From positions 62,001-126,000 of the forward strand of contig JAENYG010000005.1 in the NCBI GenBank assembly GCA_016841875.1: 64,000 bases of DNA. Reading direction: 5' to 3'. Below are positions 25,955 through 61,593 of the stretch, piece after piece. The notes under the pieces are model-generated. The model was not told the DNA's origin and did no database searches. It saw only the letters and a list, made by a program, of their open reading frames with translations. The position numbers were made by a program, and so were the translations under genes. Position 1 is the stretch's first letter. Each line of letters opens with the position of its first letter. Source of the DNA: Syntrophomonas sp. (lineage in GTDB: Bacteria > Bacillota > Syntrophomonadia > Syntrophomonadales > Syntrophomonadaceae).

Positions 25955-25972
25955 CTGGCACAATTTTTGCTT
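25955..25972 (+). promoter_or_regulatory. Sigma-54 promoter of the 70-residue orphan protein
   Basis: CTGGCACAATTTTTGCTT has GG and GC separated by exactly ten bases and matches TGGCAC-N5-TTGC fully. It lies 44 bases before the start at 26016. Confidence 0.85.
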
Positions 25973-26015
25973 AATAATATATGCGTAATACTAAAAATGT
26001 TAGGTGATGATTGAT

Positions 26016-26228
26016 ATGCTTAAAAAGTTAGCAATGGTTAAGGGACCAGCCGGGTATTGCGATGGTAAAATGGGCATTATAGTTGCCATCCGGGACGAAC
26101 AACGAACCAGCAGTAAAGAAAGAACCTGCTTATACAAGTTGCTGGTAGATGGACAAATAAGCAGCTGGCTGCCCAGTGAATGGCTGGACATATTAGAACC
26201 CATTCCCAGCCAGGATGAAGCAATGTAA
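26016..26228 (+). CDS. 70-residue protein of unknown function under sigma-54 control
   Basis: Starts at the ATG at 26016, eight bases after AGGTGA. Sequence features are an N-terminal MLKKLAMVKGPAGYCDGKMG with two glycines and one cysteine, a beta-rich middle (GIIVAIRDEQ, CLYKLLVDGQ) and a SSWLPSEWLDILE end with two tryptophans. This could be a small SH3-like barrel. I do not recognise a family. Its dedicated sigma-54 promoter is the best evidence that it is real and belongs to the same regulon as the acyl-CoA genes downstream. Confidence 0.6.
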   Translation: MLKKLAMVKGPAGYCDGKMGIIVAIRDEQRTSSKERTCLYKLLVDGQISSWLPSEWLDILEPIPSQDEAM

Positions 26229-26470
26229 ATTAGAAAGCTTTAGATATATGAAGTTTAATTATTAAAAGACGATATAAATTCAGAAACTCCTCCTGCAAAT
26301 ATTACCTTGATACCCGCATATCTACTTTAGCTGCAGCTGTCGGGTACCAGGGTATAGAAGGTATGAAGCAGCTGGAAAGCTGGTTAAGGATATAAGGTTG
26401 TTTTCCTGTTTTTAAAGCTGCAGGATAATCATATAAATGAAGTTGACTGCAGCATTAAATAATCCACTCT

Positions 26471-26577
26471 GTCTCAAGCAGTACAGTTGTCAAGAGAATA
26501 ATCAATCAGATTTACCCCCTCAAATCTGATTTCCCATACGCTACCCCTTAGTCATTTTAAGCTGGACTGCTTGAGAC
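26471..26577. repeat. Nested inverted repeats
   Basis: Outer arms GTCTCAAGCAGT (26471-26482) and ACTGCTTGAGAC (26566-26577) are perfect. Inner arms AATCAGATTT (26504-26513) and AAATCTGATT (26522-26531) are perfect. The layout suits a structured RNA or a small palindromic element. Confidence 0.65.
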
Positions 26578-26607
26578 AATATTAAGAAGATCAAATCATA
26601 TAACATT

Positions 26608-26673
26608 AGACATATGCCAGGCAGATATCATTTCCACCCAAAAAACAGATATCTGTCTGGCATATGTCTTTTT
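26608..26673 (+). terminator. Long hairpin with T-run
   Basis: 21-base arms AGACATATGCCAGGCAGATAT and its inverse, with one mismatch, are followed by TTTTT on the + strand. It would end transcripts from the 26016 gene. Confidence 0.75.
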
Positions 26674-26961
26674 GGTTGGGCGGAAATAAATCAGCCTCCT
26701 GACCAGTGTCAGCAGCCGAGTAGAATTTTTTATAGTAAAAATAATGGTGAAAAAATAGGTTCAACTAATTGCTGGCTTGAGAACCGTGGAAACAGCGCTC
26801 GAAGTAGTGGCTGAATTTTATGGGTAGACTTGGGTGGTGCGGTTGAGGAGAAGAGGTTCAATTGAGGAGAAGATATTAATATACAAACATACTGTTCAGG
26901 TAGATATGGGTTGGTAGAGAAGAAGTTGATAGAGACACGGGAGTGCTATCCGAAAGCTGGC

Positions 26962-26994: not shown

Positions 26995-27016
26995 CCTTTA
27001 AGCTTTTGCTCGGAGC

Positions 27017-27169: not shown

Positions 27170-28294
27170 TTATATCACCCCCAATAAAGTTAGCATAATA
27201 CCCCCTGCTACGGCAGTCCCTAATACGCCAGCTAAATTTGGTCCCATGGCATGCATGATCAAGTAATTTCGTTTATTAGCCTGTATTCCAACCATATGAG
27301 ATACTCGCGCTGCCATGGGAACAGCCGCTATGCCAGCCGATCCAATCAAAGGATTGATTTTGCCCTTGCTCATCCAGCACATGAGCCTGGCCCACAGAAT
27401 ACCGCTGGCAGTGCCGATACAAAAAGCGATCAAACCAAGTATGACAATCATCAAGGTCTGCATATTAACGAAGTTTTCAGCGCTCATAGTTGAACCGATA
27501 GCTACTGCTATAAATACGGTAATAACGTCCAGGAATACTCCCCCAATAGTATTGGCTACTCTCTCCATAACTCCTGACTCGCGAATTAGATTTCCCAGCA
27601 TCAGACAGGATATCAATGGAGCAATGGGCGGAAGCAGTATTAATACTACCAGGATCATCATTATCGGAAAGACTATCTTTTCTATTTGGGATACAGGTCT
27701 CATCTTCTCCATAGCAATCTTTCTTTCATGTTCGGGAACCAGGGCCTTCATGATGGGTGGTTGAATCAAAGGCAGCAGAGCCATATATGAATATGCTGCA
27801 ACTGCTACCGGTCCCAGTAGATGAGGAGCAAGTTTAGTAGCAACGTATATGGCCATAGGCCCATCAGCTCCTCCGATAATACCAATCGCACCTGCTTCCG
27901 CAATATCAAATCCGAGCAATTTTGCCCCTATCAAAGCTACGAAAATACCCAGGTGGGCAGCTGCGCCTAATACTATAGTACTGGGATTGGCGATTAGAGG
28001 ACCGAAGTCAGTCATAGCGCCTACCCCTAAGAATATTAAGGGTGGATAAATTACCGCTGCTATTCCCAGGTAGTTAAAGTGCAGCAGCCCTCCCACATCC
28101 ATCAAACCGGTTCCCGGTACGTTGACCAGGATACATCCGATACCAAGTGGTACTAATAAGAAGGGTTCAAACTTCTTCTTAATTCCAAACCAGATAAATA
28201 GAATTCCAAAACATATCATAATGATATGGGCCAGTGAAAAATTTGCAATTCCAGTTCCTTTTGCCATTGCTACAAACATGTCTATAATAACCAT
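27170..28294 (-). CDS. gcdB: Sodium-translocating decarboxylase beta subunit
   Basis: Polytopic membrane subunit that decarboxylates carboxybiotin and exports Na+. The 374-residue protein has about ten hydrophobic segments. It carries the signature GIIGGADGPMAIYVATKL, with the ion-binding aspartate, and NPLIGSAGIAAVPMAARVS, both conserved in OadB/GcdB/MmdB. It is transcribed away from the biotin carrier and carboxyltransferase genes but has its own sigma-54 promoter facing theirs. The gcdB name follows the neighbouring GcdA-like subunit. Confidence 0.92.
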   Translation of the reverse strand: MVIIDMFVAMAKGTGIANFSLAHIIMICFGILFIWFGIKKKFEPFLLVPLGIGCILVNVPGTGLMDVGGLLHFNYLGIAAVIYPPLIFLGVGAMTDFGPLIANPSTIVLGAAAHLGIFVALIGAKLLGFDIAEAGAIGIIGGADGPMAIYVATKLAPHLLGPVAVAAYSYMALLPLIQPPIMKALVPEHERKIAMEKMRPVSQIEKIVFPIMMILVVLILLPPIAPLISCLMLGNLIRESGVMERVANTIGGVFLDVITVFIAVAIGSTMSAENFVNMQTLMIVILGLIAFCIGTASGILWARLMCWMSKGKINPLIGSAGIAAVPMAARVSHMVGIQANKRNYLIMHAMGPNLAGVLGTAVAGGIMLTLLGVI

Positions 28295-28386: not shown

Positions 28387-28402
28387 GCAAATACTGTGCC
28401 AA
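28387..28402 (-). promoter_or_regulatory. Sigma-54 promoter of gcdB
   Basis: On the minus strand this reads TTGGCACAGTATTTGC, a full TGGCAC-N5-TTGC match with GG-N10-GC spacing. It lies about 95 bases upstream of the gcdB start. Confidence 0.87.
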
Positions 28403-28513: not shown

Positions 28514-28545
28514 ATACAGTTGTTCGGATAACCGTACAACTGTAT
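28514..28545. promoter_or_regulatory. 32-bp palindrome between divergent sigma-54 promoters, probable enhancer-binding site
   Basis: Arms ATACAGTTGT and ACAACTGTAT are perfect, and the 12-base centre itself holds CGG-ATAA-CCG. It lies about 110 bp from the gcdB -24 element and 130 bp from the gcdC -24 element, a usual distance for upstream activating sequences. Confidence 0.7.
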
Positions 28546-28674
28546 GGGTAATATACAAGACAAGTTCTCTAGAAGAGATGAGAAATAGGATTGCTTCCTG
28601 GAACTGGTTTAGTTTTGGCAGTGAATACTAGTGGTGTATAATATAGGATAATACTCCCTAAATTGCTTGTTGCT

Positions 28675-28691
28675 CTGGCACAATATTTGCA
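28675..28691 (+). promoter_or_regulatory. Sigma-54 promoter of gcdC-gcdA
   Basis: CTGGCACAATATTTGCA matches TGGCAC-N5-TTGC with exact spacing, about 70 bases before the biotin-carrier start. Confidence 0.88.
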
Positions 28692-28760: not shown

Positions 28761-28973
28761 ATGGCAGTAGTAGAGAGTCCCTTGGCTGGGAAAATATTAG
28801 AAATCAACGTAACGGTAGGTCAGACAGTTAATGAAGATGATGAAATAATCATCCTGGAGGCAATGAAGATGGAAAATCCCATTTTCGCTCCCTCGACCGG
28901 TACTGTGAAAGAAATTAAAGTCAAGGCCGGAGATCGGGTCAATGAGGGCGACGTGCTGGTGATAATTGAGTAA
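28761..28973 (+). CDS. gcdC: Biotin carboxyl carrier protein of the decarboxylase
   Basis: The 70-residue protein is a bare biotinyl domain. The biotinylation motif EAMKMENP is near residue 34, between two beta-hammerheads (VESPLAGKILEINVTVGQTVNEDDE and FAPSTGTVKEIKVKAGDRVNEGD). It would carry CO2 from the alpha to the beta subunit. It lacks the Ala/Pro linker and N-terminal part found in many GcdC proteins. The strong AAAGGAGGTAAT site suggests high expression. BirA is encoded downstream. Confidence 0.93.
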   Translation: MAVVESPLAGKILEINVTVGQTVNEDDEIIILEAMKMENPIFAPSTGTVKEIKVKAGDRVNEGDVLVIIE

Positions 28974-29143: not shown

Positions 29144-30889
29144 ATGGGAGAATATGGGTTTTCATTACATCCATACTTTAAAGAAATGCCCGGAATAGGC
29201 AAGGATTTGCCCAGGGAAATGAAGCAGAATGTAGATGAGATAAAAAGGGTTGAAAAAGAGTTAGCCGATGCGGTTAAAAAAGTCACAGATGCAGGAAAAG
29301 CGGCGCAGGATATAAATAGTAAAGGTGAGATGACGGCCTGGCAGCGCATAGAATATCTGGTAGATTCCGGCACCTGGTGTCCTTTACATACCATTTATGA
29401 TCCAGATACTAATGAAGAAGGCACTACCGGTGTCATAGACGGTTTAGGTAAAATAGCAGGTAAATGGGCGGTGATTATTGCATCTAACAACCAGATCATG
29501 GCTGGCGCCTGGATTCCCGGTCAGGCAGATAATATCCTGCGAGTGACGGATATGGCTAAAAGACTGCATATACCTCTAGTGTGGCTGCTTAACTGCAGCG
29601 GGGTAAAACTAACCGAGCAAGAAGAAGTATATGCTAACCGTCGAGGAAATGGTACTCCTTTTTACCGTCATGCGGAGCTGGAAAAACTAGGTATACCAGT
29701 TATCGTAGGTATCTATGGTACCAACCCTGCTGGTGGTGGATATCATGGCATAAGTCCTACCACCCTGATTGCACATAAAGATGCCAACATAGCCGTTGGT
29801 GGTGGGGGTATTGTAAGCGGTATGTCTCCCAAAGGTTTTATTGATCAGGAGACGGCAGAAAACCTCATCGAAGCTACTCAAAAGTTAAATGCTGCACCAC
29901 CGGGCAGGGCGGAAATTCATTATTTGAATACAGGTTTCTTCAGAGAAATTTGCGAAACAGAAGAAAAGGTATTGGATAAAATTAAGCAATATATGAAAGA
30001 TATGCCTGCATATCACCCGGATTTTTTCAGGGTAGCCGAGCCGGCGGAACCTAAATATCCTGCCAGTGATCTTTACAGTCTGGTGCCGTTTAACCAGAGA
30101 AGAGTCTACAATATGAAGGAAGTCCTGGCCAGGTTGTTTGACAACAGCGAACATATGGAATACCGGCCGGATTACGGCCCCGAAGTATACTGCGGGTTGG
30201 CCAAGATAGATGGTTATCTGTGTGGAATCATTGGCAACAACCAGGGGGTTTTGGGGTCCAACTATCCCGAATATACCGACCAGTATCAGGGTATTGGAGG
30301 AAAGCTGTATAGGCAGGGTCTCATTAAAATGAGTGAATTTGTAACATTCTGTGGACGGGACCGTATTCCCATAATATGGCTGCAGGATACTACCGGAATC
30401 GATGTGGGAGACACAGCTGAAAAGGCCGAATTGCTTGGTTTGGGGATGTCCTTGATATATTCTATTGAGCAGACTGATCTTCCCATGATACTGATTGTGC
30501 TGAGAAAAGGTACGGCGGCAGCCCATTATTTACTGGGGGGGCCCAATGGCAACAATAATAATGTGTTTACCCTGGGCACGCCGACCACAGAAATTTATGT
30601 GATGCATGGGGAGACAGCCGCAGCCGCAGCTTATTCACGCAGGTTGGTGAAAGAAAAGCAGGCTGGCAAGTCATTAGAGCCGGTGATCGAAAAAATGAAT
30701 GAGATGGTCAAGGATTACTATGATAAATCGAGACCCGTATATTGTGCACAAAAAGGGTTTGTAGATGAAATCGTGAGATATACTGATCTTCGTAATTATT
30801 GTAAAGCATTTGTTGGCTCGGTATATCAGAATCCAACTTCCATCTGTGCATTTCATCATATGATAACTCCGAGAACGATCAAAGGCTAG
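29144..30889 (+). CDS. gcdA: Glutaconyl-CoA decarboxylase alpha subunit (carboxyltransferase)
   Basis: Transfers the carboxyl group of an enoyl- or acyl-CoA (glutaconyl-CoA in the known enzyme) to biotin. The 581-residue length and the sequence match GcdA of Acidaminococcus as I recall it: NCSGVKLTEQEEVYANRRG, GIYGTNPAGGGYHGISPT, IGGKLYRQGLIKMSEF, QDTTGIDVGDTAEKAELLG and LRKGTAAAHYLLGGPNG. MmdA-type subunits are shorter (~510) with a different N-terminus. The substrate is inferred from similarity. It lies 170 bp after the biotin carrier, probably in the same transcript. Confidence 0.9.
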   Translation: MGEYGFSLHPYFKEMPGIGKDLPREMKQNVDEIKRVEKELADAVKKVTDAGKAAQDINSKGEMTAWQRIEYLVDSGTWCPLHTIYDPDTNEEGTTGVIDGLGKIAGKWAVIIASNNQIMAGAWIPGQADNILRVTDMAKRLHIPLVWLLNCSGVKLTEQEEVYANRRGNGTPFYRHAELEKLGIPVIVGIYGTNPAGGGYHGISPTTLIAHKDANIAVGGGGIVSGMSPKGFIDQETAENLIEATQKLNAAPPGRAEIHYLNTGFFREICETEEKVLDKIKQYMKDMPAYHPDFFRVAEPAEPKYPASDLYSLVPFNQRRVYNMKEVLARLFDNSEHMEYRPDYGPEVYCGLAKIDGYLCGIIGNNQGVLGSNYPEYTDQYQGIGGKLYRQGLIKMSEFVTFCGRDRIPIIWLQDTTGIDVGDTAEKAELLGLGMSLIYSIEQTDLPMILIVLRKGTAAAHYLLGGPNGNNNNVFTLGTPTTEIYVMHGETAAAAAYSRRLVKEKQAGKSLEPVIEKMNEMVKDYYDKSRPVYCAQKGFVDEIVRYTDLRNYCKAFVGSVYQNPTSICAFHHMITPRTIKG

Positions 30890-30973: not shown

Positions 30974-31036
30974 AGTAATAGGGCTCATCATCAAGGGATA
31001 TGCGCCGGTGCACATTAGCTGAAGGGCGTGACGTAT

Positions 31037-31945
31037 ATGTATAAAAAGCAGATTAAAGTATATAGACCTATCCGATCGGGACAATTTACTCCCGTAAGGA
31101 ATTGCAGCCGTCAGATAAAGATGGCAAGGCGGCATTTCACGCTAAAATGCCGGAGCCTTAAGGAAGGGCAGAGAATACGTCTGCGAGGAAAAGAGATCTA
31201 TTTCTATAAAGCAGTTGATTCAAGCAATATTATCGCCAGATCTTTGGCCCAATCAGGCGCTGCTGATGGCATCATAATCGTATGTGAAACCCAGACCGCA
31301 GGCAGAGGCAGAAGGGGCAGGCAGTGGTCATGTCCGACAGGCAAAGGGATTCTTATGTCAATGGTATTACGGCCTCAAATAGCTGTTCCAGCCGTCCCCT
31401 TACTTACTCTTCTGACAGGAGTAGTTGTTGCTGAGACTATACATAAAGCTACTGGATGTACGGTGGGTATAAAATGGCCTAATGATATTATTATCAGCGG
31501 TAAAAAAGTCTGCGGTATTCTTGCGGAAAGCAGCATTTCCTCCCAAGGAGTTCCTGAACATGTGATAATGGGTATCGGAATAAACGTGAACTTGGAGAAG
31601 AGCGATCTGCCTTCTGATTGTATGGAAACAAGTACGTCACTAAAAATGGAACTTGGTAAACCCCTATCACGGTTAAGTATATTAAGGGAGTTTATTGCTG
31701 CGTGGGACGAACATTACCAGGCCTTTTTGCAAAATGGGAATGAGTATATCTTTAAAAAATGGAAAGAAAATAATATTACCCTGGGACGTACCGTTACGAT
31801 CAGTAAGGGCAGTGAGTCCATTATCGGCATGGCTGTTGATATAAGCGACCGGGGCGGGCTGGTAATAAGGCTGTCCAATGGGACATTAGAGGAGTTTATG
31901 GCAGAGGATGTTAGTCTGGGCAGGTCTCATTACCAAACTATTTGA
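31037..31945 (+). CDS. birA: Biotin-[biotin carrier protein] ligase, without N-terminal DNA-binding domain
   Basis: Activates biotin and attaches it to the lysine of the biotin carrier. Catalytic motifs are ETQTAGRGRRGRQW, KWPNDIIISGKKVCGIL and GIGINVN. A C-terminal SH3-like domain (GRTVTISKGSESIIGMAVDIS) is present. The first ~50 residues are basic and do not form the HTH of regulatory BirA, so it is probably only an enzyme. It lies after gcdA, consistent with serving that complex. Start ATG 31037 or GTG 31028. Confidence 0.92.
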   Translation: MYKKQIKVYRPIRSGQFTPVRNCSRQIKMARRHFTLKCRSLKEGQRIRLRGKEIYFYKAVDSSNIIARSLAQSGAADGIIIVCETQTAGRGRRGRQWSCPTGKGILMSMVLRPQIAVPAVPLLTLLTGVVVAETIHKATGCTVGIKWPNDIIISGKKVCGILAESSISSQGVPEHVIMGIGINVNLEKSDLPSDCMETSTSLKMELGKPLSRLSILREFIAAWDEHYQAFLQNGNEYIFKKWKENNITLGRTVTISKGSESIIGMAVDISDRGGLVIRLSNGTLEEFMAEDVSLGRSHYQTI

Positions 31946-32074: not shown

Positions 32075-33250
32075 ATGAGTTTACCCTTGGAGGGAATAAA
32101 GATATTGGATTTATCCAGGATGCTGCCTGGCCCATTTTGCACCCAGATATTAGCTGATTACGGAGCAGAGGTAATTAAAGTGGAAGACCGGGAAGGTGAA
32201 ACGGGGAGAAGGCTGCTTCCCCTGATAGGGGATCAATCTGCCCGATTTTATGCACTTAATCGAAATAAAAAGAGTATTACCCTGGATTTGAAAAGACCAG
32301 AAGGTCAAGAAATATTTAAACGAATGGTCGCCGTAAGTGACGTGGTTGTGGATGTTTTTCGTCCGGGAGTTATGGAAAAGCTGGGATTGGGTTACAGTGT
32401 ACTGAAAGACATTAATGAACGGATTATTTATTGTGCTCTTAATGCGTTTGGTTCCAATGGTCCCCTGAGCAGGGTGCCGGCACATGACTTGAATATTCAG
32501 GGTCTGGCCGGGGTAACTGCTTTAACAGGGACGAGTGACAGCATACCAGGCACATCCCCGGTACAGGGGGCAGCAACAGGAGGTTCTTTATATGCCGTTA
32601 TAGCAATCCTAATGGCATTTTTCAATCGGCAAAAAACCGGACAGGGCCAGTTCTGCGATGTTTCCATGATGGATAGCGCTATAAGTTTTATGGCCTATAC
32701 CCTGGCTGAATGGTCAGGTTGGGGCAGACTGCCTCAAAGAGGCAGAGAAGCTTTAACCGGAGGATATGCGTATAGTAATATATATGAGACAAGTGATGAT
32801 AGATATATGGCTCTTGCAGCCCCGGAAACCAAGTTCTGGCATGAATTCTGTGAACGTATAGCTCGGCCCGAATACATAGCCATGCAAAGGAACCGGGAGA
32901 TGCAGGAACAAATGATAGAAGATATTCAAGAAATTATTAAACAAAAGAGCCAGGCTGAATGGATAGAAATCTTTGCGGATGCCAATATATGCTTTACTCC
33001 GGTTCTAAATTTAGATGAAATGTGTACACATCCACAGGTTGCTGCTCGGGAGATGATCATTAAGCTTGATAATTATGAAGATTCAGGTAAAGATATGGTG
33101 CTGATCGGTTCCCCCATGAAACTATCCGATACTCCAGCAGTAGTCAAATTGAGATTTCCAGAAGTAGGCGAACATACCCGAGAAGTCCTGTTGTCAGCTG
33201 GTTATTCAGAGGAGGAAATTGGGGCATTTGCAGCATCAGGTGTTATTTAA
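32075..33250 (+). CDS. Family III CoA transferase (CaiB/BaiF type), copy 1
   Basis: Moves CoA between carboxylic acids without covalent acyl-enzyme ping-pong. The 391-residue protein has the family N-terminus GIKILDLSRMLPGPFCTQILADYGAEVIKVED, NRNKKSITLDLKR, and the region around residue 165 containing the catalytic-aspartate segment (PAHDLNIQGLAG upstream and CDVSMMDSAISFMAYTLAEWSGWG). It is a clear paralogue of the 41381 gene. The acid substrate is not determinable. It is preceded by GGGAGGGAATGG. Confidence 0.92.
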   Translation: MSLPLEGIKILDLSRMLPGPFCTQILADYGAEVIKVEDREGETGRRLLPLIGDQSARFYALNRNKKSITLDLKRPEGQEIFKRMVAVSDVVVDVFRPGVMEKLGLGYSVLKDINERIIYCALNAFGSNGPLSRVPAHDLNIQGLAGVTALTGTSDSIPGTSPVQGAATGGSLYAVIAILMAFFNRQKTGQGQFCDVSMMDSAISFMAYTLAEWSGWGRLPQRGREALTGGYAYSNIYETSDDRYMALAAPETKFWHEFCERIARPEYIAMQRNREMQEQMIEDIQEIIKQKSQAEWIEIFADANICFTPVLNLDEMCTHPQVAAREMIIKLDNYEDSGKDMVLIGSPMKLSDTPAVVKLRFPEVGEHTREVLLSAGYSEEEIGAFAASGVI

Positions 33251-35250: not shown

Positions 35251-35266
35251 GCAAAACTTTTGCCAG
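35251..35266 (-). promoter_or_regulatory. Sigma-54 promoter of the long acyl-CoA dehydrogenase
   Basis: On the minus strand this is CTGGCAAAAGTTTTGC: TGGCA and TTGC with GG-N10-GC spacing, about 100 bases upstream of the start. Confidence 0.8.
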
Positions 35267-35297: not shown

Positions 35298-35466
35298 AAT
35301 GAAGTTTAATGCTGGATGACGGTTCTGACTGCAGTTAGGATATTTGAATACCACCACCAGCCAGGCATTAGACTGTGTATTAATAAAGCCCACTGCTGTA
35401 TAACAATAGGACAGTAAGCCAATCATAGGGCAACTATCAAAATATATAGCAGTACTATAGTTGTTG

Positions 35467-35483
35467 TTGGCATCGATTTTGCA
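35467..35483 (+). promoter_or_regulatory. Sigma-54 promoter upstream of the broken crotonase
   Basis: TTGGCATCGATTTTGCA has exact GG-N10-GC spacing. The core TGGCATCGATTTTGCAA is identical to the one at 46243. Confidence 0.85.
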
Positions 35484-50212: not shown

Positions 50213-50288
50213 TTTTGTTCCCAGAGTGCACTGCATTCAGGAACAAAGGAGTAAATCAGGGTTATTGAAAATCAACACCCTCCCCTTC

Positions 50289-50326
50289 AAGGGAAAGGAC
50301 AAACCGGACTGGCTTGCCCTTTCCCC
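50289..50326 (+). terminator. Hairpin between SDR genes
   Basis: AAGGGAAAGG and CCTTTCCC arms around a ~20-base loop with no clear T-run. It may reduce but not block read-through to the downstream genes. Confidence 0.5.
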
Positions 50327-50443
50327 ATTATTAGGCTGGTGATGACGAAAAACCAGAACTCCATGAATAATCACTGACATGATCAGTTTTTGGATTGCCC
50401 TTTCCGACTGTTAATTGTATATATTGAGAAAGGTGTGGATAAT

Positions 50444-51223: not shown

Positions 51224-51282
51224 TATCAGAAATCTCTAATTCAATGGTTGTGGTAGATAAATATATCAGGAGGTGAAAGCTA

Positions 51283-52053: not shown

Positions 52054-52081
52054 GAACTAGGAAAGGAAAGAAGGAAACAAT

Positions 52082-53917: not shown

Positions 53918-53935
53918 AATTATTCTTTGTAATAT

Positions 53936-53958
53936 ACCGGGGATGGTTACCATCCCCG
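53936..53958 (+). terminator. Tight GC hairpin after acyl-CoA dehydrogenase copy 2
   Basis: Perfect arms CCGGGGATGG and CCATCCCCGG with a three-base loop; no T-run follows. It may mark an RNA processing or pause site. Confidence 0.55.
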
Positions 53959-53992
53959 GAAATTATAGGAGTATTAGGAGTGATTATTTAAC

Positions 53993-54733
53993 ATGAGGCT
54001 GAAAGACAAAGTAGCCATAATTACCGGATCCGGTCAGGGCATAGGAGAAGGAATAGCTCAGAAATTTGCGCGGGAAGGGGCCAAAGTGGTTCTGGTTGAT
54101 GTTAACGAAAGCCAGCTCAAGAATGTTGAGCAGGACATTAAAGATAAGGGTGGAACCGCCCTGGCACTGGTTGGGGATGTTACCATTCCAGCCGACATGA
54201 AGAATCTGGTTGAAAAAGTGGTACAGGAATTTGGCACAGTAGATATTGTAATTAATAATGCAGGTATCACCCGGGATGCGCTGGTTCATAAAATGACTGA
54301 AGATAAGTGGGATATGGTAATCAATGTAAACCTTAAAGGCACCTTCAACCTGTGCCAGGCAGTAGCCCCTATAATGCGGGAAAAAGGTTACGGTAAGATA
54401 GTTAACATTACTTCTGCGGCCAGGTTTGGTAATGTAGGGCAGACTAATTATGCTGCGTCTAAAGCAGGTGTGGTTGGACTGACCCGCAGTTTAGCCAAAG
54501 AACTGGGGCCCAAGCAGGTCAATGTAAATGCAGTAGCACCAGGGTTCATTGAAACCGAAATGAGTAAAAAAGTACCTGAAGATATTCTTAAGACCCTGGT
54601 TCAGAAGATTCCTATGCTCCGTCAGGGCACTATTGAAGAAGTCGCCAATGTATGTTTATTCCTGGCCTCAGATGAATCCGCGTTTGTGAACGGGCAGGTT
54701 ATTCATGTCGATGGCGGAAGGTTTATGTTCTAA
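53993..54733 (+). CDS. FabG-type short-chain dehydrogenase (acetoacetyl-CoA/3-oxoacyl reductase-like), copy 1
   Basis: 246 residues with VAIITGSGQGIGEG, NNAGITRDALVHKM, TSAARFGNVGQTNYAASKAG, VNVNAVAPGFIETEM and the FVNGQVIHVDGG end: the full FabG/PhaB signature. In this cluster it could oxidise or reduce a 3-hydroxy/3-oxoacyl-CoA. The aspartate after beta-2 (VVLVDVNE) favours NAD, in contrast to typical biosynthetic FabG. Close paralogue at 56395. Confidence 0.9.
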   Translation: MRLKDKVAIITGSGQGIGEGIAQKFAREGAKVVLVDVNESQLKNVEQDIKDKGGTALALVGDVTIPADMKNLVEKVVQEFGTVDIVINNAGITRDALVHKMTEDKWDMVINVNLKGTFNLCQAVAPIMREKGYGKIVNITSAARFGNVGQTNYAASKAGVVGLTRSLAKELGPKQVNVNAVAPGFIETEMSKKVPEDILKTLVQKIPMLRQGTIEEVANVCLFLASDESAFVNGQVIHVDGGRFMF

Positions 54734-54771
54734 CTGCTGATTTTAAAATAAAATAAAAGGGGGATATTCGA

Positions 54772-56148
54772 GTGAAGAGTTATTTGGAAGAGTATAAGAG
54801 TAAGTTAATCACCGCTGAACAGGCAGCAGCCAAGGTAAAAAGCGGAGACATTGTAAACTATGGTGCGTTTAATCTCAAACCAATCGCATACGACGAGGCT
54901 CTGGGTGCTCGAGCAGGCGAACCCGGCCTGGAGAAAGTATACATCAAATTGAGCGGCCAGATGCCGCCTGCGCCCCACGTACTGCTGAAAGACCCGGAAA
55001 TGAAGACTTTCCAGGTGGCGAGCTGGTTCTTTAACGCCCAGGACCGTTATTTTGGCGATAAGGGAATACTTGACTTCCTGCCATTGAATTATCATGATAC
55101 CAATCAGATGACCTACCGCAAGGATCGGTCCCCCGCTTCCAGAAGAGGGGATTTCTGGGTAGCCCAGGTTGGCCCTATGGATAAACACGGCAATTTCAAC
55201 ATCGGTATTACTAACACCGATGCCTATGTGAAAGCAATGGAGGCTCCCTGCGTTATAGTGGAAGTTAACGAGACTCTGCCCCGCTGCCTGGGCGGTTATC
55301 AGGAATTTGTTCATATCAGCATGGTGGATCATATTATTGAAGGTCCCAACCGGCCGCTCCATGATACCGGTGAAATTCCTGCTGCAAGCCCTGAAGAAAC
55401 AAAGATTGCTGAATTTGTTATGGAAGAAATAACCGATGGATGCAACATTCAATTGGGAATAGGCACTATGCCCAATGCCATTGGTATGATGATCGCCAAC
55501 TCGGATCTTAAGGATATTGGGATCCAGACCGAAATGTTCTGCCCGGCTATGGTCGACATGTATGAAGCCGGCAAGGTGACCAATGCCAACAAATACTATG
55601 ACCAGTTTAAAACCACCTATACCTTTGCACTGGGTAACAAAAGAACCTATGATTTCATCGATGACAATCCCAGATTGGCTTCCTGCCCGGTGGAATACGT
55701 CAACGCTCCCCAGCGGGTCTGCATGCAGCCCAAGGTTATTTCCATCAACAACCTGCTGGAAATCGATCTTTTGACCCAGGCCTGTTCAGAAACCATGGGC
55801 TTGAGGCAGGTATCCGGATCCGGCGGGCAATTGGACTGGGTTGCTGGCGCATTTGACTCCAACGGCGGTAAGAGCTTCCTGGCCTTCACCTCCACCCGAA
55901 CCAAAAAAGACGGATCATTAGTATCCCGGATCAGGCCTATGCTGACCCCCGGAGCAGTTGTAACCACTCCGCGTCATAGCATCCACTGGATTGTAACTGA
56001 ATATGGCAAAGTTCAGCTTAAAGGTTTATCCGTGTGGGAAAGAGTTGAAGAAATAATCAAGATAGCACATCCCGACTTCCGTGAAGAGCTTTTGGCTGAA
56101 GCAGCTAAGATGGGTATATGGAAACGCACCAACAGAAGACCTTTATAA
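54772..56148 (+). CDS. Acetyl-CoA hydrolase/transferase family CoA transferase, copy 2
   Basis: 458 residues. Shares with the 38447 gene: IQLGIGTMPNAIGMM, IGIQTEMFCPAMVD with the likely catalytic Glu, and SGSGGQLDWVAGAFDSNGGKSFL. GTG start after AGGGGGATATTC. It likely activates a carboxylic acid at the expense of acetyl-CoA or another acyl-CoA. It lies between two FabG-type genes. Confidence 0.9.
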   Translation: MKSYLEEYKSKLITAEQAAAKVKSGDIVNYGAFNLKPIAYDEALGARAGEPGLEKVYIKLSGQMPPAPHVLLKDPEMKTFQVASWFFNAQDRYFGDKGILDFLPLNYHDTNQMTYRKDRSPASRRGDFWVAQVGPMDKHGNFNIGITNTDAYVKAMEAPCVIVEVNETLPRCLGGYQEFVHISMVDHIIEGPNRPLHDTGEIPAASPEETKIAEFVMEEITDGCNIQLGIGTMPNAIGMMIANSDLKDIGIQTEMFCPAMVDMYEAGKVTNANKYYDQFKTTYTFALGNKRTYDFIDDNPRLASCPVEYVNAPQRVCMQPKVISINNLLEIDLLTQACSETMGLRQVSGSGGQLDWVAGAFDSNGGKSFLAFTSTRTKKDGSLVSRIRPMLTPGAVVTTPRHSIHWIVTEYGKVQLKGLSVWERVEEIIKIAHPDFREELLAEAAKMGIWKRTNRRPL

Positions 56149-56235
56149 TTAGGGCTGGACTTTGTAGCAGATAATATACAGCGTTTCCGTGGATCATAAG
56201 CTTGTCGAGTACATGTTTATATGCATGGCTATAGT

Positions 56236-56266
56236 ATCCGGGTCCTGCATGACCCGGATATTTTGC
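56236..56266 (+). terminator. Rho-independent terminator after CoA transferase copy 2
   Basis: Arms ATCCGGGTC and GACCCGGAT, followed by ATTTTGC. Confidence 0.75.
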
Positions 56267-56394
56267 TTGTAGACTTAATCTGCAGTTACCATTAAATTAC
56301 CGGGTTCGACAGGATGAAGGTGCATTACAGCATCTGCTTTTGAAAATGTGAAAACTAAAGTGGAAGAGTGGAAGCTGAGAATAGGAGTGATTGT

Positions 56395-57135
56395 ATGAGG
56401 CTGAAAGATAAGGTAGCCATTATAACGGGATCCGGTCAGGGTATTGGAGAAAGTATAGCCTACAGATTTGCCTGGGAAGGGTCCAAAGTCATCATATGCG
56501 ATCTGAAGGAAGACCTGGTTAAAAAAGTCGAAAAAAAAATAAATGAACAAAACGGGACAGCCCTGGGGGCAGTAGCGGATGTGACCAATGCTGCGGATAT
56601 TAAGGGTCTGGTTGAAAAAGTGCTTCATAAGTTTGGAACCGCAGATATCCTGATCAACAATGCAGGTATAACCAGAGATGTAATGTCCCACAAGATGAAC
56701 GAGGATCAATGGGATATGGTTATTGATATCAACCTTAAAGGCACATTCCTTTGCTGCCAGGCGGTCCTGCCCATATTGAGGGATAAGAATTACGGCAAAA
56801 TTGTAAATATATCTTCAGCCGCTCGCTTTGGCAATCCAGGACAGGCCAATTATGCAGCATCAAAAGAAGGTATAGTGGGCCTGACCCGCTCATTGGCCAA
56901 GGAACTGGGACCTAAAGGTATAAATGTAAATGCAATTGCTCCTGGTTTCATTGAAACTGCCATGAGTAAAGCTGTTCCCCCCGAGATATTAAACGAGAAG
57001 GTGAAGATCATTCCCATGCTGCGGCAGGGTACAGTGGAAGAAGTGGCCAATGTTTGCTTGTTCCTGGCCTCGGAAGAATCATCGTTTATAACCGGGCAGG
57101 TGATTCACGTCGATGGTGGAAGATACATGCCATAG
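56395..57135 (+). CDS. FabG-type short-chain dehydrogenase, copy 2
   Basis: 246 residues and a clear paralogue of the 53993 gene over the whole length (MRLKDKVAIITGSGQGIGES, NNAGITRDVMSHKMNEDQWDMV, SSAARFGNPGQANYAASKEG, FITGQVIHVDGG). Start at 56395 follows ATAGGAGTGATTGT. VIICDLKE after beta-2 again suggests NAD. Paired with the acyl-CoA dehydrogenase 35 bases downstream. Confidence 0.9.
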   Translation: MRLKDKVAIITGSGQGIGESIAYRFAWEGSKVIICDLKEDLVKKVEKKINEQNGTALGAVADVTNAADIKGLVEKVLHKFGTADILINNAGITRDVMSHKMNEDQWDMVIDINLKGTFLCCQAVLPILRDKNYGKIVNISSAARFGNPGQANYAASKEGIVGLTRSLAKELGPKGINVNAIAPGFIETAMSKAVPPEILNEKVKIIPMLRQGTVEEVANVCLFLASEESSFITGQVIHVDGGRYMP

Positions 57136-57170
57136 CAACAGCATGCAGGTTAAGGGAGAGAGGTAAAGAC

Positions 57171-58970
57171 ATGGCAGACAAATTTGTGAGTAAGCGCAAC
57201 CTAAAATTTCTTTTATATGAAGTCTTCGGCGTAGATGAGTTGATTGAGTATGAATATTTTCAGGATCACAGTCGCGAGACATTTGACATGATCATAGATA
57301 CAGCCATAAAAATCGGCACAGATTTGATGTATCCGGTTTTTCAGGAGATGGACGCCGATCCTCCCCAGTATATGGATGGAATAGTGAAAACTCATCCGGC
57401 GGTGAGAACCACTATGAGCGAATTCGGTCAGGGTGGGTGGATCAACGCCAATCAATCTTACGAATATGGTGGACAACAGATACCTACTGTTATTCAGAAT
57501 GTATTACAGTTCATATTTTGCGCTGCCAACTATTCTTTAAATGCTTACCCTGGGCTGACCCGGGGAGCAGCCAACCTGATTGTCCACTTTGGCTCTCAGG
57601 AACAAAAGGATCAATATCTGGAAAAGATGTTTTCCGGTCATTGGCAGGGAACCATGGCCTTGACTGAACCAGATGCAGGGAGTTCACTGGCAGATATCAG
57701 AACTTCAGCGGAAGATACAGGTCTGGGTTATTATAAAATAAAGGGCACGAAAATATTCATCTCGGCAGGAGATACCGATGCGGTGGACAACACCATTCAT
57801 ATGATGCTGGCCAGGATAAAGGGTGCCCCAGCCGGGGTAAAAGGGATTTCCTTGTTTATCGTACCGAAATATCGCAGCAATAAAAATGGTGAATCCGAGT
57901 TTAATGATCTAACCTGTGCCGGAATCGAGCACAAGCTGGGTTATAAAGGGTCTCCTATATGCCAGCTGGCTATGGGCGAAAATGGGGATTGCCATGGGTA
58001 TTTAGTGGGCGAACCTAATAAGGGTTTATCATATATGTTTCATATGATGAATGAAAAGCGAGTTGCAGTTGGAATCGGAGCCGCTGCCAAGGCTACTGCA
58101 GCTTATTATGCGGCCCTGGAGTATGCGCAGCAGCGTTTACAGGGCAGGAAGGTATCTGAAAAGGATCCTCTTTCTGCTCAGATTCCTATTATTGAGCATG
58201 CCGATGTGAAACGCATGCTGCTGTTCCAGCGGGCTGTATGTGAGGGGTCCCTATCCCTGGCTATTCAGGCTGCCAAATATCTCGATCTGGCATCGGTAGG
58301 CGAGGAAGCTGAGAAATACGACCTGATGTCTGACCTGCTCATTCCCATAGTAAAGACTTATCCTTCTGAGATGGGGATCCTATCCACTAGCTCCGCCATA
58401 CAGTGTCTGGGTGGATATGGTTTCTGCCGTGACTTCCCGGTAGAGCAGTATTATCGCGACATCAGGATCGACACTCTGCATGAAGGTACTACCGGCATCC
58501 AGGCCAAGGATCTCCTGGGCAGAAAAGTCACCATGAAAGGCGGTAAGGCTTATCAACTGGTCATAGAAGAGATCAGCATAACTATCGGTCAAGCAGAAGT
58601 CATACCGGACTTAAAAGAATATGCAGCGAAACTTACCAAAGCCTTGGATGTCTTCAAGGAAGTCACTGACTGCCTGCTTGAACTTAAGCAACAGGGCGAT
58701 CTGGAGAAATTTGAAGCGGACGCCGCTATTTATCTGGAAATGGCTGGAGTGCTGGTTGTAGCCTGGCAGTGGCTGATGCAAGCCATAACGGCAGCCAAAG
58801 CTCTGACCTCAGGAGTAAGTGAAAGCGATACTAATTTCTACCATGGTAAATTATATACTTTTAAGTATTATTATAAGTATGAACTGCCGAAGATAGAGGG
58901 CCTGGCTGCAGTTCTTAAAAACAGTGATGCGATAACGATTAAGATGAACCCGGAATTATTTCTGGATTGA
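57171..58970 (+). CDS. Long-type acyl-CoA dehydrogenase, copy 3
   Basis: 599 residues from the ATG at 57171 (GAGAGGTAAAGAC upstream); a longer in-frame start at 57054 would overlap the SDR and is rejected. Motifs: MALTEPDAGSSLADIRTSA, GTKIFISAGDTDAVDNTIHMM, GIEHKLGYKGSP, LGGYGFCRDFPVEQYYRDIRI and LHEGTTGIQAKDLLGRK with the catalytic Glu. It is more divergent than the other two long copies, so probably has a different acyl specificity. Confidence 0.93.
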   Translation: MADKFVSKRNLKFLLYEVFGVDELIEYEYFQDHSRETFDMIIDTAIKIGTDLMYPVFQEMDADPPQYMDGIVKTHPAVRTTMSEFGQGGWINANQSYEYGGQQIPTVIQNVLQFIFCAANYSLNAYPGLTRGAANLIVHFGSQEQKDQYLEKMFSGHWQGTMALTEPDAGSSLADIRTSAEDTGLGYYKIKGTKIFISAGDTDAVDNTIHMMLARIKGAPAGVKGISLFIVPKYRSNKNGESEFNDLTCAGIEHKLGYKGSPICQLAMGENGDCHGYLVGEPNKGLSYMFHMMNEKRVAVGIGAAAKATAAYYAALEYAQQRLQGRKVSEKDPLSAQIPIIEHADVKRMLLFQRAVCEGSLSLAIQAAKYLDLASVGEEAEKYDLMSDLLIPIVKTYPSEMGILSTSSAIQCLGGYGFCRDFPVEQYYRDIRIDTLHEGTTGIQAKDLLGRKVTMKGGKAYQLVIEEISITIGQAEVIPDLKEYAAKLTKALDVFKEVTDCLLELKQQGDLEKFEADAAIYLEMAGVLVVAWQWLMQAITAAKALTSGVSESDTNFYHGKLYTFKYYYKYELPKIEGLAAVLKNSDAITIKMNPELFLD

Positions 58971-59196
58971 TGATCGAGGCTGAAGTCCATGTATACAAAA
59001 AATTACTTTATTTGACTCAGATTTATATATATAAAATCCTGTATACAAGGTTATGGTGGGTTAAAATTATGATACCATTGTAGTCGGCAAGCATTATTGG
59101 CAGATAGAATAGCCGTATAAATAGCCAGTGCTGGAAACGGTAAGGGCAGTATAATAAATAGCACACGTTGACAAAAGAGGATGGGAGGAAGAAATT
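58971..59196. other. Intergenic region before nfnAB
   Basis: Two GTATACA motifs (58991, 59041) flank an AT-rich stretch with TTGACT at 59012 and TAAAAT further on, but their spacing is only ~14 bases. No sigma-54 promoter is seen, unlike most gene groups in the island. Confidence 0.35.
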
Positions 59197-60048
59197 ATGT
59201 TTGCGATTGTCTTAAAGGAGGAACTGGCCCCTAAAATTAAGCTATTCAAAGTATTGGCACCAGAAATAGCGCGGAAAGCCCAGCCTGGTCAATTCATCAT
59301 ACTGCGCATTGACGAGGAGGGAGAACGGATTCCGCTGACTATTGCCGATTTTGATGCTGCTGCTGGGACTATAACTATCATATTCCAGGAAGTCGGCAAA
59401 ACTACGGATTTACTGGGAATCATGGAACAGGGTGATTCCCTGCTGGATTTTGTAGGCCCCCTGGGGATGGAATCTGAGATCGAAAACTATGGAACTGTAG
59501 TATGCATTGGCGGCGGCGTCGGTGTGGCTCCGGTTTTCCCCATAGCCCGAGCATTACAAGAAGCCGGTAACACGGTTATCTCTATAATCGGGGCCAGAAA
59601 CTCCGAACTTTTGATTTGGAAACAGGAAATGAACCAAATCAGCTCTAAGCTTCATGTGGCTACTGATGATGGCAGTGCGGGGCAAAAAGGATTCGTTAGT
59701 GATGTTTTAGCAGAGATTCTTGATTCGACCCAAGTCGATCGGATCATCGCTATTGGTCCGGTTCCCATGATGGAGGCAGTTTGCAAGGTTGCACCAGAAA
59801 GCATCACCACCATGGTTAGTTTGAATCCGATAATGGTAGATGGTACTGGTATGTGTGGTGCCTGTCGGGTAGAAGTGAACAGACAGACCAAGTTTGCCTG
59901 CGTGGATGGTCCTGAATTTGATGGACATCAGGTGAACTGGGACCTGGTCAAAATGCGAGCTAAGATGTTTGTAAAAGAAGAAAAGGAAGCACTGAGTCAC
60001 AGATGTGGGGAAGGAGAATGTCAATGTCACAGGAAAAACGAAAAATAA
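59197..60048 (+). CDS. nfnA: NADH-dependent ferredoxin:NADP+ oxidoreductase, small subunit (NfnA)
   Basis: 283-residue flavoprotein with FAD-binding ferredoxin-reductase fold (QPGQFIILRIDEEGERIPLTIADFD), nucleotide site GGGVGVAPVFPIARAL, and a 2Fe-2S cysteine cluster near the C-terminus (MCGACRVEV, FACVDGPEFDGHQV). With NfnB it bifurcates electrons between NADPH, NAD+ and ferredoxin in the cytoplasm. It ends inside the nfnB start region. In a syntroph it can balance NADPH, NADH and reduced ferredoxin made by beta-oxidation. Confidence 0.9.
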   Translation: MFAIVLKEELAPKIKLFKVLAPEIARKAQPGQFIILRIDEEGERIPLTIADFDAAAGTITIIFQEVGKTTDLLGIMEQGDSLLDFVGPLGMESEIENYGTVVCIGGGVGVAPVFPIARALQEAGNTVISIIGARNSELLIWKQEMNQISSKLHVATDDGSAGQKGFVSDVLAEILDSTQVDRIIAIGPVPMMEAVCKVAPESITTMVSLNPIMVDGTGMCGACRVEVNRQTKFACVDGPEFDGHQVNWDLVKMRAKMFVKEEKEALSHRCGEGECQCHRKNEK

Positions 60049-61427
60049 TACCGAAAAAGCATCCGATGCCATATCAGGATCCTGGCGTGCGCTGTTCTAA
60101 TTTCGAAGAAGTGGCACTGGGATACTCTGAGGAAACCGCAGTCCTGGAGGCTAACCGCTGCATCCAATGCAAGAATAGTCCTTGTATAGATGGTTGCCCG
60201 GTAGGGATCGATATTCCTGCCTTTATAAAAATGATTGCTGAACGGGATTTTGCTGGAGCTATTAGCAAAATAAAGGAAAAAAATTACCTGCCGGCTATCT
60301 GTGGTCGTGTATGTCCGCAGGAAAGCCAATGTGAAGCCAAATGTACCATCGGCAAGAAAAACGAACCGGTAGCCATTGGCCGACTGGAGCGCTTCATAGC
60401 CGATTGGGAGATGGCTCAGGATTTAGAGTCTACCCCGGAAATTACACCGAATGGAAAGAAAGTCGCCATTGTAGGGTCAGGTCCCTCCGGCTTGACAACG
60501 GCTGCCTGTCTGGGATTGAAGGGATACCAGGTGACAGTTTTCGAGGCCCTGCATGTAGCGGGTGGGGTACTGATTTATGGAATTCCTGAATTCCGTCTTC
60601 CTAAAAAAATTGTAGCCCGGGAAATCGAGAATATTTCCAGGCTGGGGGTTGATATTAGAGTCAATGCTGTGGTAGGAAAACTTAACAGCATCGATGAATT
60701 ACTGGAACAGGGTTATGATGCTGTATATATTGGAACAGGAGCAGGATTACCTTATTTCATGAATATTCCCGGGGAGAACCTGAATGGAGTTTATTCAGCT
60801 AATGAATTCCTGACCCGAAATAATCTTATGAAGGCTTACAAATTTCCAGACTATCTTACCCCCATAAGAGTAGGAGACAGAGTAGCAGTCATTGGTGGGG
60901 GAAATGTAGCCATGGATAGTGCCAGAACTGCTCTTAGATTAGGTGCCGAATCTAATATCATTTATCGCCGAACGATAAAAGAGATGCCAGCTCGCCATGA
61001 AGAAGTTGAACATGCCATGGAAGAAGGAGTTCAATTTGAATACCTGGCCAGTCCCATAGAAATTAAAGGCAATGAAGAAGGGCGAGTTACCTCAATTATC
61101 TGCCAGAAGTATGAGCTGGGAGAGCCAGATGAATCAGGACGCAGGAGTCCGGTTGCCATTCCCGGAGAGATGTTTGAGATACCGGTTGACACAGTGATCA
61201 TGGCTATCGGACAGGGACCTAACCCCCTGGTGCCCCAGACGACACCAGATTTGAATACTAATAAATGGGGTAATATCATAGCCGATGCTGAAACCGGGGC
61301 CACCTCCATGAAAGGTGTATATGCAGGCGGAGACGTAGTAACCGGTGCCGCAACTGTAATTCTGGCCATGGGGGCCGGTAAAGGCGCAGCTGAGGCTATA
61401 GATGAATATCTGCAAGGATCAAAATAA
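60024..61427 (+). CDS. nfnB: NADH-dependent ferredoxin:NADP+ oxidoreductase, large subunit (NfnB)
   Basis: 467 residues, glutamate synthase small-subunit-like. N-terminal 4Fe-4S motifs CIQCKNSPCIDGCPVGIDIP and CGRVCPQESQCEAKC, then FAD site VAIVGSGPSGLTTAACL and NADPH site VAVIGGGNVAMDSARTALRLGA. Start ATG 60024 is seven bases after AAGGAG; it overlaps nfnA by 25 bases. The pairing with NfnA argues against glutamate synthase. Confidence 0.92.
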   Translation: MSQEKRKIIPKKHPMPYQDPGVRCSNFEEVALGYSEETAVLEANRCIQCKNSPCIDGCPVGIDIPAFIKMIAERDFAGAISKIKEKNYLPAICGRVCPQESQCEAKCTIGKKNEPVAIGRLERFIADWEMAQDLESTPEITPNGKKVAIVGSGPSGLTTAACLGLKGYQVTVFEALHVAGGVLIYGIPEFRLPKKIVAREIENISRLGVDIRVNAVVGKLNSIDELLEQGYDAVYIGTGAGLPYFMNIPGENLNGVYSANEFLTRNNLMKAYKFPDYLTPIRVGDRVAVIGGGNVAMDSARTALRLGAESNIIYRRTIKEMPARHEEVEHAMEEGVQFEYLASPIEIKGNEEGRVTSIICQKYELGEPDESGRRSPVAIPGEMFEIPVDTVIMAIGQGPNPLVPQTTPDLNTNKWGNIIADAETGATSMKGVYAGGDVVTGAATVILAMGAGKGAAEAIDEYLQGSK

Positions 61428-61475
61428 GCGTGTAAGAATAATTTTGTATTACCGGCTTTATATTACTTACGGTCC

Positions 61476-61511
61476 AAGGCTGTTGACAGGCAAAGGTCAA
61501 CAGCCTTTTTT
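61476..61511 (+). terminator. Rho-independent terminator of nfnAB
   Basis: Arms AAGGCTGTTGAC and GTCAACAGCCTT with an eight-base loop, followed by TTTT. Confidence 0.93.
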
Positions 61512-61576
61512 GGTGTACATATTATTTGCAGCTAATAAAGTAATTTAGATATAAAACGCCAGCAACCTGCCACATG

Positions 61577-61593
61577 TTGGCATAAAAATTGCT
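61577..61593 (+). promoter_or_regulatory. Sigma-54 promoter of crotonase copy 2
   Basis: TTGGCATAAAAATTGCT, identical to the copy-1 promoter. The sequence upstream of it is unrelated to copy 1, so enhancer sites may differ. Confidence 0.87.

Follow-up and report, generated by a model that had tools for sequence, protein, structure and literature searches.

The island and its sigma-54 boxes

The 64-kb window considered here (G000:C31:62001-126000) belongs to a 3.97-Mb Syntrophomonas genome in 90 contigs, G000. Its first 25.6 kb consists of housekeeping genes and holds no sigma-54 boxes, which are defined here as exact TGGCA-N6-TTGC sequences. Beyond these genes lies a catabolic island in which 11 such boxes are found (Table 1), compared with 0.74 ± 0.79 (maximum 4) in 100 dinucleotide shuffles of the window. 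The 11 boxes look like real, conserved promoters, and they precede most of the island's acyl-CoA genes. As a set these sigma-54 promoters are dense and have been conserved in evolution, and they appear to be divided between several distinct activator circuits instead of constituting one regulon.

Four intergenic regions of the island carry divergent pairs of boxes. At 28387-28401(-)/28676 the gene for the Gcd beta subunit is read in one direction and those for a biotin carrier and GcdA in the other. Two acyl-CoA dehydrogenase genes flank the pair 35251-35265(-)/35468; the second is preceded by what remains of a hydratase gene (35521-35987), which sits behind an apparently intact sigma-54 promoter. 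A CoA-transferase and a hydratase gene lead leftwards from 39905-39919(-)/40174, and a hydratase and a CoA-transferase gene rightwards. At 45978-45992(-)/46243 the gene for a metallo-beta-lactamase-fold protein, followed by that for a bacterial enhancer-binding protein (bEBP-1), faces a zinc alcohol dehydrogenase gene. A fifth divergent pair, beyond the window, separates the gene for a second activator, bEBP-2, from a run of thiolase, 3-hydroxyacyl-CoA dehydrogenase and hydratase genes. The cluster extends past the window, with further boxes at 64784(-), 65043, 82813 and 85640 (extended coordinates).

Table 1. Sigma-54 boxes, enhancer-like sequences and genes of the island (window coordinates; HTH, helix-turn-helix; SDR, short-chain dehydrogenase/reductase; ORF, open reading frame)
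Feature	Position	Strand	Remarks
Putative enhancer TGTATGCAGAACCGGACA	25832..25849	+	106 bp upstream of 25956 box; same letters in G001
Sigma-54 box TGGCACAATTTTTGC	25956..25970	+	identical in G001; 46 bp ahead of small ORF
Conserved 70-aa small protein, first ORF behind 25956 box	26016..26228	+	
Sodium-pump decarboxylase beta subunit (GcdB-like)	27170..28294	-	PF03977, TIGR01109
Sigma-54 box TGGCACAGTATTTGC	28387..28401	-	
Class B enhancer-like region, TGTTCGGATAACCGTACA and TGTATGGGTAATATACA	28521..28557	.	between divergent boxes; includes G000:C31:90521-90538
Sigma-54 box TGGCACAATATTTGC	28676..28690	+	
70-aa biotin carrier protein	28761..28973	+	
Glutaconyl-CoA decarboxylase alpha subunit (GcdA)	29144..30889	+	801 bits to PDB 3gf3
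Biotin protein ligase	31028..31945	+	
Family III CoA-transferase	32075..33250	+	
Acyl-CoA dehydrogenase, 620 aa	33314..35176	-	
Sigma-54 box TGGCAAAAGTTTTGC	35251..35265	-	gene behind missing in G001
Weak enhancer-like site TGTATAACAATAGGACA	35397..35413	.	between divergent boxes
Sigma-54 box TGGCATCGATTTTGC	35468..35482	+	
Enoyl-CoA hydratase remnant (internal loss)	35521..35987	+	intact gene in G001
Acyl-CoA dehydrogenase, short type	36128..37267	+	scanned from 36092
Enoyl-CoA hydratase	37555..38340	-	
Butyryl-CoA:acetate CoA-transferase type	38447..39784	-	508.7 bits to TIGR03948, below cut-off 674.8
Sigma-54 box TGGCATCCTTCTTGC	39905..39919	-	
Class E enhancer-like region, two TGTATTA repeats, TGTATTAAAAAGATACA	40068..40105	.	
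Sigma-54 box TGGCATAAAAATTGC	40174..40188	+	
Enoyl-CoA hydratase, copy 1	40391..41185	+	
Family III CoA-transferase	41381..42553	+	
bEBP-1: sigma-54 activator, AAA+ domain, Fis-type HTH, GAFTGA loop	42763..44781	-	
Metallo-beta-lactamase-fold protein	45086..45907	-	
Sigma-54 box TGGCATGTTGTTTGC	45978..45992	-	
Class A enhancer-like region, TGTTACCCGAAGTGACA and further GTTAC half-sites	46141..46189	.	conserved in four genomes
Sigma-54 box TGGCATCGATTTTGC	46243..46257	+	
Zinc-type alcohol dehydrogenase family	46475..47551	+	
Class A enhancer-like region, GTAAC repeats, TGTTGATTAGTGGTAACA	47842..47891	.	conserved in four genomes
Sigma-54 box TGGCATTGAATTTGC	48033..48047	+	
Collinear run: thiolase, five SDRs, two long acyl-CoA dehydrogenases, CoA-transferase, flavin/Fe-S oxidoreductase pair	48211..61427	+	
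Duplicated sigma-54 core promoter	61578..61592	+	
Enoyl-CoA hydratase, copy 2	61795..62589	+	
bEBP-2: GAF, PAS, AAA+, Fis HTH, GSFTGA	62752..64000	-	604 aa in full, start beyond window

Number, position and conservation of the boxes

The original prediction had described 11 elements as GG-N10-GC. All were recovered on the strands given for them, and all 11 have the exact TGGCA-N6-TTGC core with the GG/GC spacing of a -24/-12 promoter. The low ends of the reverse-strand boxes had been placed exactly, while the T of TGGCA in the forward-strand boxes lies one base later than had been given. The absence of such elements from the first 25.9 kb was also borne out, there being no TGGCA-N6-TTGC in that part of the window. 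The looser GG-N10-GC string, counted separately, occurs 385 times across the window; it therefore carries no evidential weight alone and was rejected as promoter evidence.

Its abundance would suit an explanation in which most boxes are products of chance or composition, as would the backward-read pattern control, from which about 15 of the 131 TGGCA-N6-TTGC boxes of the genome are to be expected; such an explanation is nevertheless highly improbable, since the same control (15 against 131) opposes it, as do the extended consensus, the intergenic placement of the boxes, their conservation at orthologous genes and the presence of rpoN and of bEBPs. The stricter pattern TGGCAY-N4-WTTGC has 76 matches in the genome and 6 in its backward control. 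Although 81% of the sequence between 25.6 and 62.6 kb is coding, all 11 boxes are intergenic (chance ~1e-8) and lie 39-218 bp ahead of the next start codon or gene remnant.

The density of boxes was compared with the genomic background, and the contrast that had been anticipated was found: the 36 kb of the island hold 11 boxes where 1.19 would be expected from the genome mean. This is the densest cluster found; contigs C2, C5, C14 and C23 each have at least six boxes within 36 kb. A sample of boxes elsewhere, the first 30 by contig order, places 25 of 30 outside ORFs of at least 150 aa and 21 of 30 outside ORFs of at least 100 aa, spurious ORFs and those running off the loci being counted. Genome-wide counts of box neighbourhoods rest on 111 of the 131 boxes in G000 and 100 of the 108 in the congener G001. 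Among the boxes listed there are at least ten divergent pairs (gap <600 bp), five of them on C31, and no convergent pairs among the 111. Across five members of the genus the box counts are 131, 108, 104, 66 and 70, the last four against backward controls of 7, 13, 2 and 9. Boxes were found in each of the 61 genomes searched, in some of them at roughly the level of the control.

Three genomes of the genus were compared for the island, which is largely collinear in G001 and G003 and partly present on an 8.7-kb contig of G004 (6 kb of which was examined). Promoter conservation in relatives, proposed with the original prediction as a check, is evident: boxes occupy orthologous places in nine of nine testable cases in G001, seven of seven in G003 and three of three in G004. 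Two of the 11 fall out of the G001 comparison, neither the gene behind 35265 nor the 61578 duplicate being present there; these two, together with the gcd pair, are also missing in G003. The flanks of the boxes are 63% (G001), 39% (G003) and 39% (G004) identical over 13, 8 and 3 pairs, respectively, five of which lie beyond the window.

Two boxes in the relatives have no evident gene. In G001 an exact box (G001:C17:27821-27835(-)) lies in the gap between an nfnB-like gene and bEBP-2, the place of the duplicate here, and no gene was recognised behind it before the convergent end of bEBP-2. In G003 a leftward box at position 20959(-) of the reversed contig C92 is found where the gene of 35265(-) would be expected, with no ORF of at least 150 aa behind it up to a small-protein gene.

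RpoN and its activators

The genome that carries these boxes also carries rpoN, as the sigma-54 reading presupposes. There is one intact copy, encoding an RpoN of 465 aa in which the C-terminal RpoN box was recognised by eye. A search with PF00158 gave 40 matches, of which 36 exceed 200 bits and are counted as bEBPs, one with an internal stop; the remaining four are weak (26-54 bits). At least 26 of the 36 have a box within 3 kb, where 6.9 would be expected, and such an arrangement is usual where a local activator serves a few operons.

Both activators of the window match PF00158 and PF02954. bEBP-1 has the GAFTGA motif and bEBP-2 the variant GSFTGA, which is accepted as functional (PMC6615313). 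The start of bEBP-2 lies behind a sigma-54 box of its own. Its orthologue in G001 is 82% identical, and its best matches in G004 and G003 (the latter on two contigs) are 55% and 54% identical, compared with 58% and 57% for the C5 activators of G000 and G001. The G003 matches, like the C5 activator, adjoin thiolase and acyl-CoA dehydrogenase genes. As they are no closer to bEBP-2 than the C5 activator is and have similar neighbours, they look like orthologues of the latter, and bEBP-2 itself appears to be missing from G003 and G004. A further bEBP (L038), again with its own boxes, starts 16 kb beyond the window.

Enhancer-like sequences and their classes

In 15 of 39 clostridial enhancer-binding protein (EBP) groups the upstream activator sequence (UAS) has TGT and ACA spaced by 10-12 bp, the majority of UAS being situated 100-250 bp upstream (PMC6615313). 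A scan for TGT-N10-12-ACA in 29 promoter regions of four genomes found 40 sites, against 7.9 ± 2.9 (maximum 16) in 200 mononucleotide shuffles. At least one site is present in 25 of the 29 regions, and 33 of the 40 lie 54-173 bp upstream of the box. Within the window, sites that are enhancer-like by sequence (TGT-N11/12-ACA) occur in six of seven promoter regions, covering 10 of the 11 boxes.

The exception is 61578, where no TGT-N10-12-ACA site was found within 300 bp. Positions 40172-41256 and 61576-62660 are 98.6% identical over 1088 bp, so that both the sigma-54 core promoter and the hydratase gene have been copied. The duplication starts two bases before the box, and the enhancer-like site was therefore left behind. 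A third TGGCATAAAAATTGC, at G000:C30:70816 (L184), was considered as another copy of the hydratase and rejected, none of 23 island proteins being matched there.

The enhancer-like sites fall, descriptively, into at least three sequence classes. Class A, made up of GTTAC/GTAAC repeats, was found only for 45992(-), 46243 and 48033. All eight region-genomes of the 46 and 48 kb regions contain two to four GTTAC words, and none of the other 21 has more than one. bEBP-1 was seen in the island of four genomes, and in each of these it is accompanied by class A sites. The gcd pair is served by class B (TGTWCGGATAACCRTACA), which G003 has as well. With up to three mismatches the class B motif has a single place in G000, at the gcd pair, the backward control giving 3 matches in this genome. 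TGTRYGG words occur at 28.5, 64.8 and 82.8 kb and in three G003 regions; the palindrome of bEBP-2, which lies just beyond the window, has TGTRYGG half-sites in common with class B. Class E consists of TGTATTA repeats at the 39.9/40.2 kb pair. The word is doubled at 40 kb in three genomes, and single copies are found at 35 kb and in a few other places.

One regulon or several circuits

According to the original prediction, most of the syntrophic oxidation pathway is a single sigma-54 regulon under the control of two activators whose genes lie in the window. The promoters themselves stand up as real and conserved, and they head most of the acyl-CoA genes. The single two-activator regulon is not supported: there are at least three enhancer classes and one promoter in which no UAS was detected, the genome has 36 strong bEBP matches, and the 11 promoters do not share one or two UAS motifs (the classes having been defined after inspection). 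That the whole pathway nonetheless obeys the two activators of the window is improbable. Two bEBPs do lie inside the cluster, the half-sites common to class B and the bEBP-2 palindrome are suggestive, and the lone place of the class B motif in G000 hints at a local activator; the number of enhancer classes and the third bEBP, L038, with its own boxes, argue the other way, as does G003, which has class B sites while its bEBP-2 matches look like orthologues of the C5 activator. For the last reason class B was not assigned to bEBP-2. L038 was considered as its activator instead: the adjacent 82.8 kb box has TGTRYGG words, and CTACA words are no more frequent there than by chance.

The best explanation, and quite probably the correct one, is that the sigma-54 promoters of the island form a mosaic of at least three local-activator circuits. 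In the general mechanism, sigma-54 polymerase forms a closed complex that requires an ATP-dependent activator. From the boxes, their intergenic placement and conservation, rpoN, the activators and the enhancer-like repeats, all of which are observed, we infer binding, activator assignment, ligands and transcript extents as follows. The 11 elements would be -24/-12 promoters read by RNA polymerase carrying sigma-54, heading the transcripts of a catabolic island set between housekeeping genes. The polymerase would wait at the boxes in the closed state until a local one-component bEBP, bound to an enhancer-like site, spends ATP to open it in response to a ligand, probably a pathway intermediate or acyl-CoA. 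At the four divergent pairs of the window one common enhancer may serve both boxes, the bound activator opening polymerase in both directions. The first circuit would comprise the class A promoters (45992(-), 46243 and 48033) under bEBP-1, the second the gcd pair under a class B activator and the third the 39.9/40.2 kb pair under a class E activator, with the 35 kb pair perhaps included. bEBP-2 would act on the divergent pair of its own that lies immediately right of the window.

Several observations weigh against this mosaic of circuits. Five of the 30 boxes sampled elsewhere fall inside ORFs of at least 150 aa, so some boxes in the genome must be due to chance, and the 100% identity of the boxes in the flank comparison is by selection. 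The enhancer classes and words were chosen after inspection of the same sequences, in which orthologous regions are not independent. The enhancer-like sites at 35 kb and 25.9 kb are weak, and no TGT-N-ACA site was found at the G003 equivalents of 25.9 kb and 40 kb. Across five genomes the class B motif has 10 matches (six at four island places, four elsewhere) against 14 in the backward control (1-5 per genome); the count is thus uninformative and only position speaks. The half-sites of classes B and C resemble each other, and one activator or cross-talk may underlie both. Class A alone has an assignable local activator, its natural partner bEBP-1, to which it is tied by adjacency, and the gap between the 45086-45907 gene and bEBP-1 is 300-400 bp, depending on the start codon of bEBP-1, so that their co-transcription is conjectural.

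A different qualification of the mosaic would be that sigma-54 gives inducible peaks only, with basal expression coming from ordinary sigma-A promoters in the same gaps, so that sigma-54 would act as a modifier. This is rather unlikely, as the nine sigma-70-like matches at 44.5-48.3 kb, the stretch to which the scan was limited, compare with 9.3 expected by chance; neither sigma-70 matches nor terminators exceeded shuffles there.

Gene content and boundaries of the island

The Gcd system is represented by the GcdA carboxyltransferase, the beta membrane subunit and the biotin carrier, the delta subunit not having been searched for. Its divergent genes (27170-30889), which include a stand-alone biotin carrier of 70 aa, suggest a glutarate- or glutaryl-CoA-type substrate. 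The nearest named relative found for GcdA is from Syntrophomonas sp. BL5_bin.17 (95% identity).

The 13-kb run behind 48033 may be a single transcript. The flavin/Fe-S oxidoreductase pair at its end is one that we take to be NfnAB-like. A stem-loop with a T run (the latter seen by eye) at 61476-61513, 3' of the nfnB-like gene, is the likely terminator of this run.

Of the enzymes that a complete acyl-CoA oxidation island would need, acyl-CoA dehydrogenase, enoyl-CoA hydratase and thiolase are present. Completeness requires that SDRs act as 3-hydroxyacyl-CoA dehydrogenases, for which they are the only candidates in the window: neither a PF00725 enzyme nor an electron-transfer flavoprotein (ETF) was found among the 48 window proteins scanned. 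An enzyme of the 3HCDH type was found 2.8 kb beyond the window.

To the right of the window the island continues with genes for methylmalonyl-CoA mutase, MeaB, a corrinoid adenosyltransferase and a carboxyltransferase (L143, L144), and further right, past L038, is the cysteinyl-tRNA synthetase gene, cysS. The genes on the left, named partly from their Pfam families, are presumably those for ATP synthase, EPSP synthase, MreB, a ClpC-like protein, DisA, IspD/IspF and GltX. With gltX on the left and cysS on the right, the acyl-CoA genes lie between two genes that are neighbours in many Bacillota.

Sigma-54 boxes and acyl-CoA genes across the genus

The association seen in the island recurs elsewhere in the genome. 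At least 31 of 42 acyl-CoA dehydrogenase matches in G000 have a same-strand box within 6 kb upstream (controls: at least 8 downstream and at least 8 upstream on the opposite strand), as do at least 17 of 20 thiolase matches (controls: at least 3 downstream and at least 7 on the opposite strand), after 7 of 49 and 3 of 23 matches, respectively, had been left out as second pieces or fragments. The corresponding figures for G001 are at least 21 of 38 (controls at least 7 and at least 4) and at least 13 of 16 (controls at least 3 and at least 6); here 1 of 41 and 2 of 19 matches were left out as pieces or fragments, and then 2 and 1 more on contig parts absent from the listing. Sigma-54 control of this class of genes thus seems, as far as two genomes can indicate, to be customary in the genus and not peculiar to one island.

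Syntrophic oxidation of fatty acids proceeds close to thermodynamic equilibrium, and we know of no explanation of how syntrophs choose among paralogous acyl-CoA dehydrogenases, thiolases and CoA-transferases. If most such genes sit behind sigma-54 promoters with local sensors, then the enhancer classes and adjacent activators would offer a map from which to predict the substrate that each paralogue responds to. Tests of it, by mapping 5' ends and by binding assays in vitro, would need no genetic work on the syntroph itself. The density of promoters should not, in itself, be read as one regulon.

Desulfovibrio vulgaris, which belongs to a different phylum, offers one comparison. Its sigma-54 regulome is likewise that of an anaerobe with many EBPs (PMC4641369). 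Sigma-54 control of acyl-CoA genes in Clostridia is already known (PMC6615313, PMC12316311), and the island is thus of an ordinary kind, although its boxes are unusually dense and well conserved. In the Clostridiales regulons described by Nie et al. (2019, PMC6615313), 65% of EBPs control one operon, with 1-35 EBPs per genome. The present genome differs in its 36 strong bEBP matches, in having several divergent promoter pairs and in an island that includes Gcd and an NfnAB-like pair; results for Syntrophomonas were not found in the accessible text of that study. In a 2025 survey (PMC12316311), lipid-metabolism genes are enriched behind sigma-54 promoters in Clostridia and Bacilli, and the families found there include, as here, acyl-CoA dehydrogenases (COG1960), thiolase and enoyl-CoA hydratase. 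As some Clostridia have 59 or 67 EBPs (PMC12316311), 36 bEBPs are not extreme. Syntrophomonas is not named in the main text of the survey, in the accessible part of which no anatomy at the level of an island was found. The proteome study of Syntrophomonas wolfei (PMC4324140) names a PAS/sigma-54 domain regulator, Swol_0456, where it deals with regulators detected only in butyrate-grown cells; sigma-54 promoters and regulons do not feature in the accessible text, nor were the words RpoN and enhancer found there. No published sigma-54 map of Syntrophomonas was found in the literature searched.

A small-protein family behind sigma-54 boxes

The first ORF behind the 25956 box encodes a protein of 70 aa that has no match in Pfam, NCBIfam or PHROGs. 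A non-coding RNA at this place was rejected, as the conserved ORF occupies it (no Rfam search was run). Searched against PDB sequences, the 70-aa alignment gave eight matches, all to uS12/S23 ribosomal proteins and none significant (best E 0.04). The structure predicted from a two-row alignment, with four strands and a short helix, is of low confidence (mean pLDDT 61, pTM 0.44).

The family has 12 matches, this one included, of 60-75 aa, in 9 of 54 family genomes; its loci include 26016-26228(+), L186-L189, L194 and L196. Nine of the 12 members have a sigma-54 box upstream, which is exact in seven, all of the genus (57-204 bp), and TGGTA-N6-TTGC in two (56-71 bp). The other three have no box within 400 bp, although one of them has a box some 660 bp upstream, beyond an intervening ORF. 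It is conceivable, and offered tentatively, that in the genus Syntrophomonas sigma-54 is the sigma factor of the whole of syntrophic acyl-CoA oxidation, each substrate module having its own ligand-sensing, ATP-consuming activator and the 60-75-aa proteins being a common output, perhaps as a feedback or adaptor factor. Three of the 12 members adjoin a GPR1/FUN34/YaaH-like membrane protein, two of these being below the Pfam cut-off and the third recognised by eye only.

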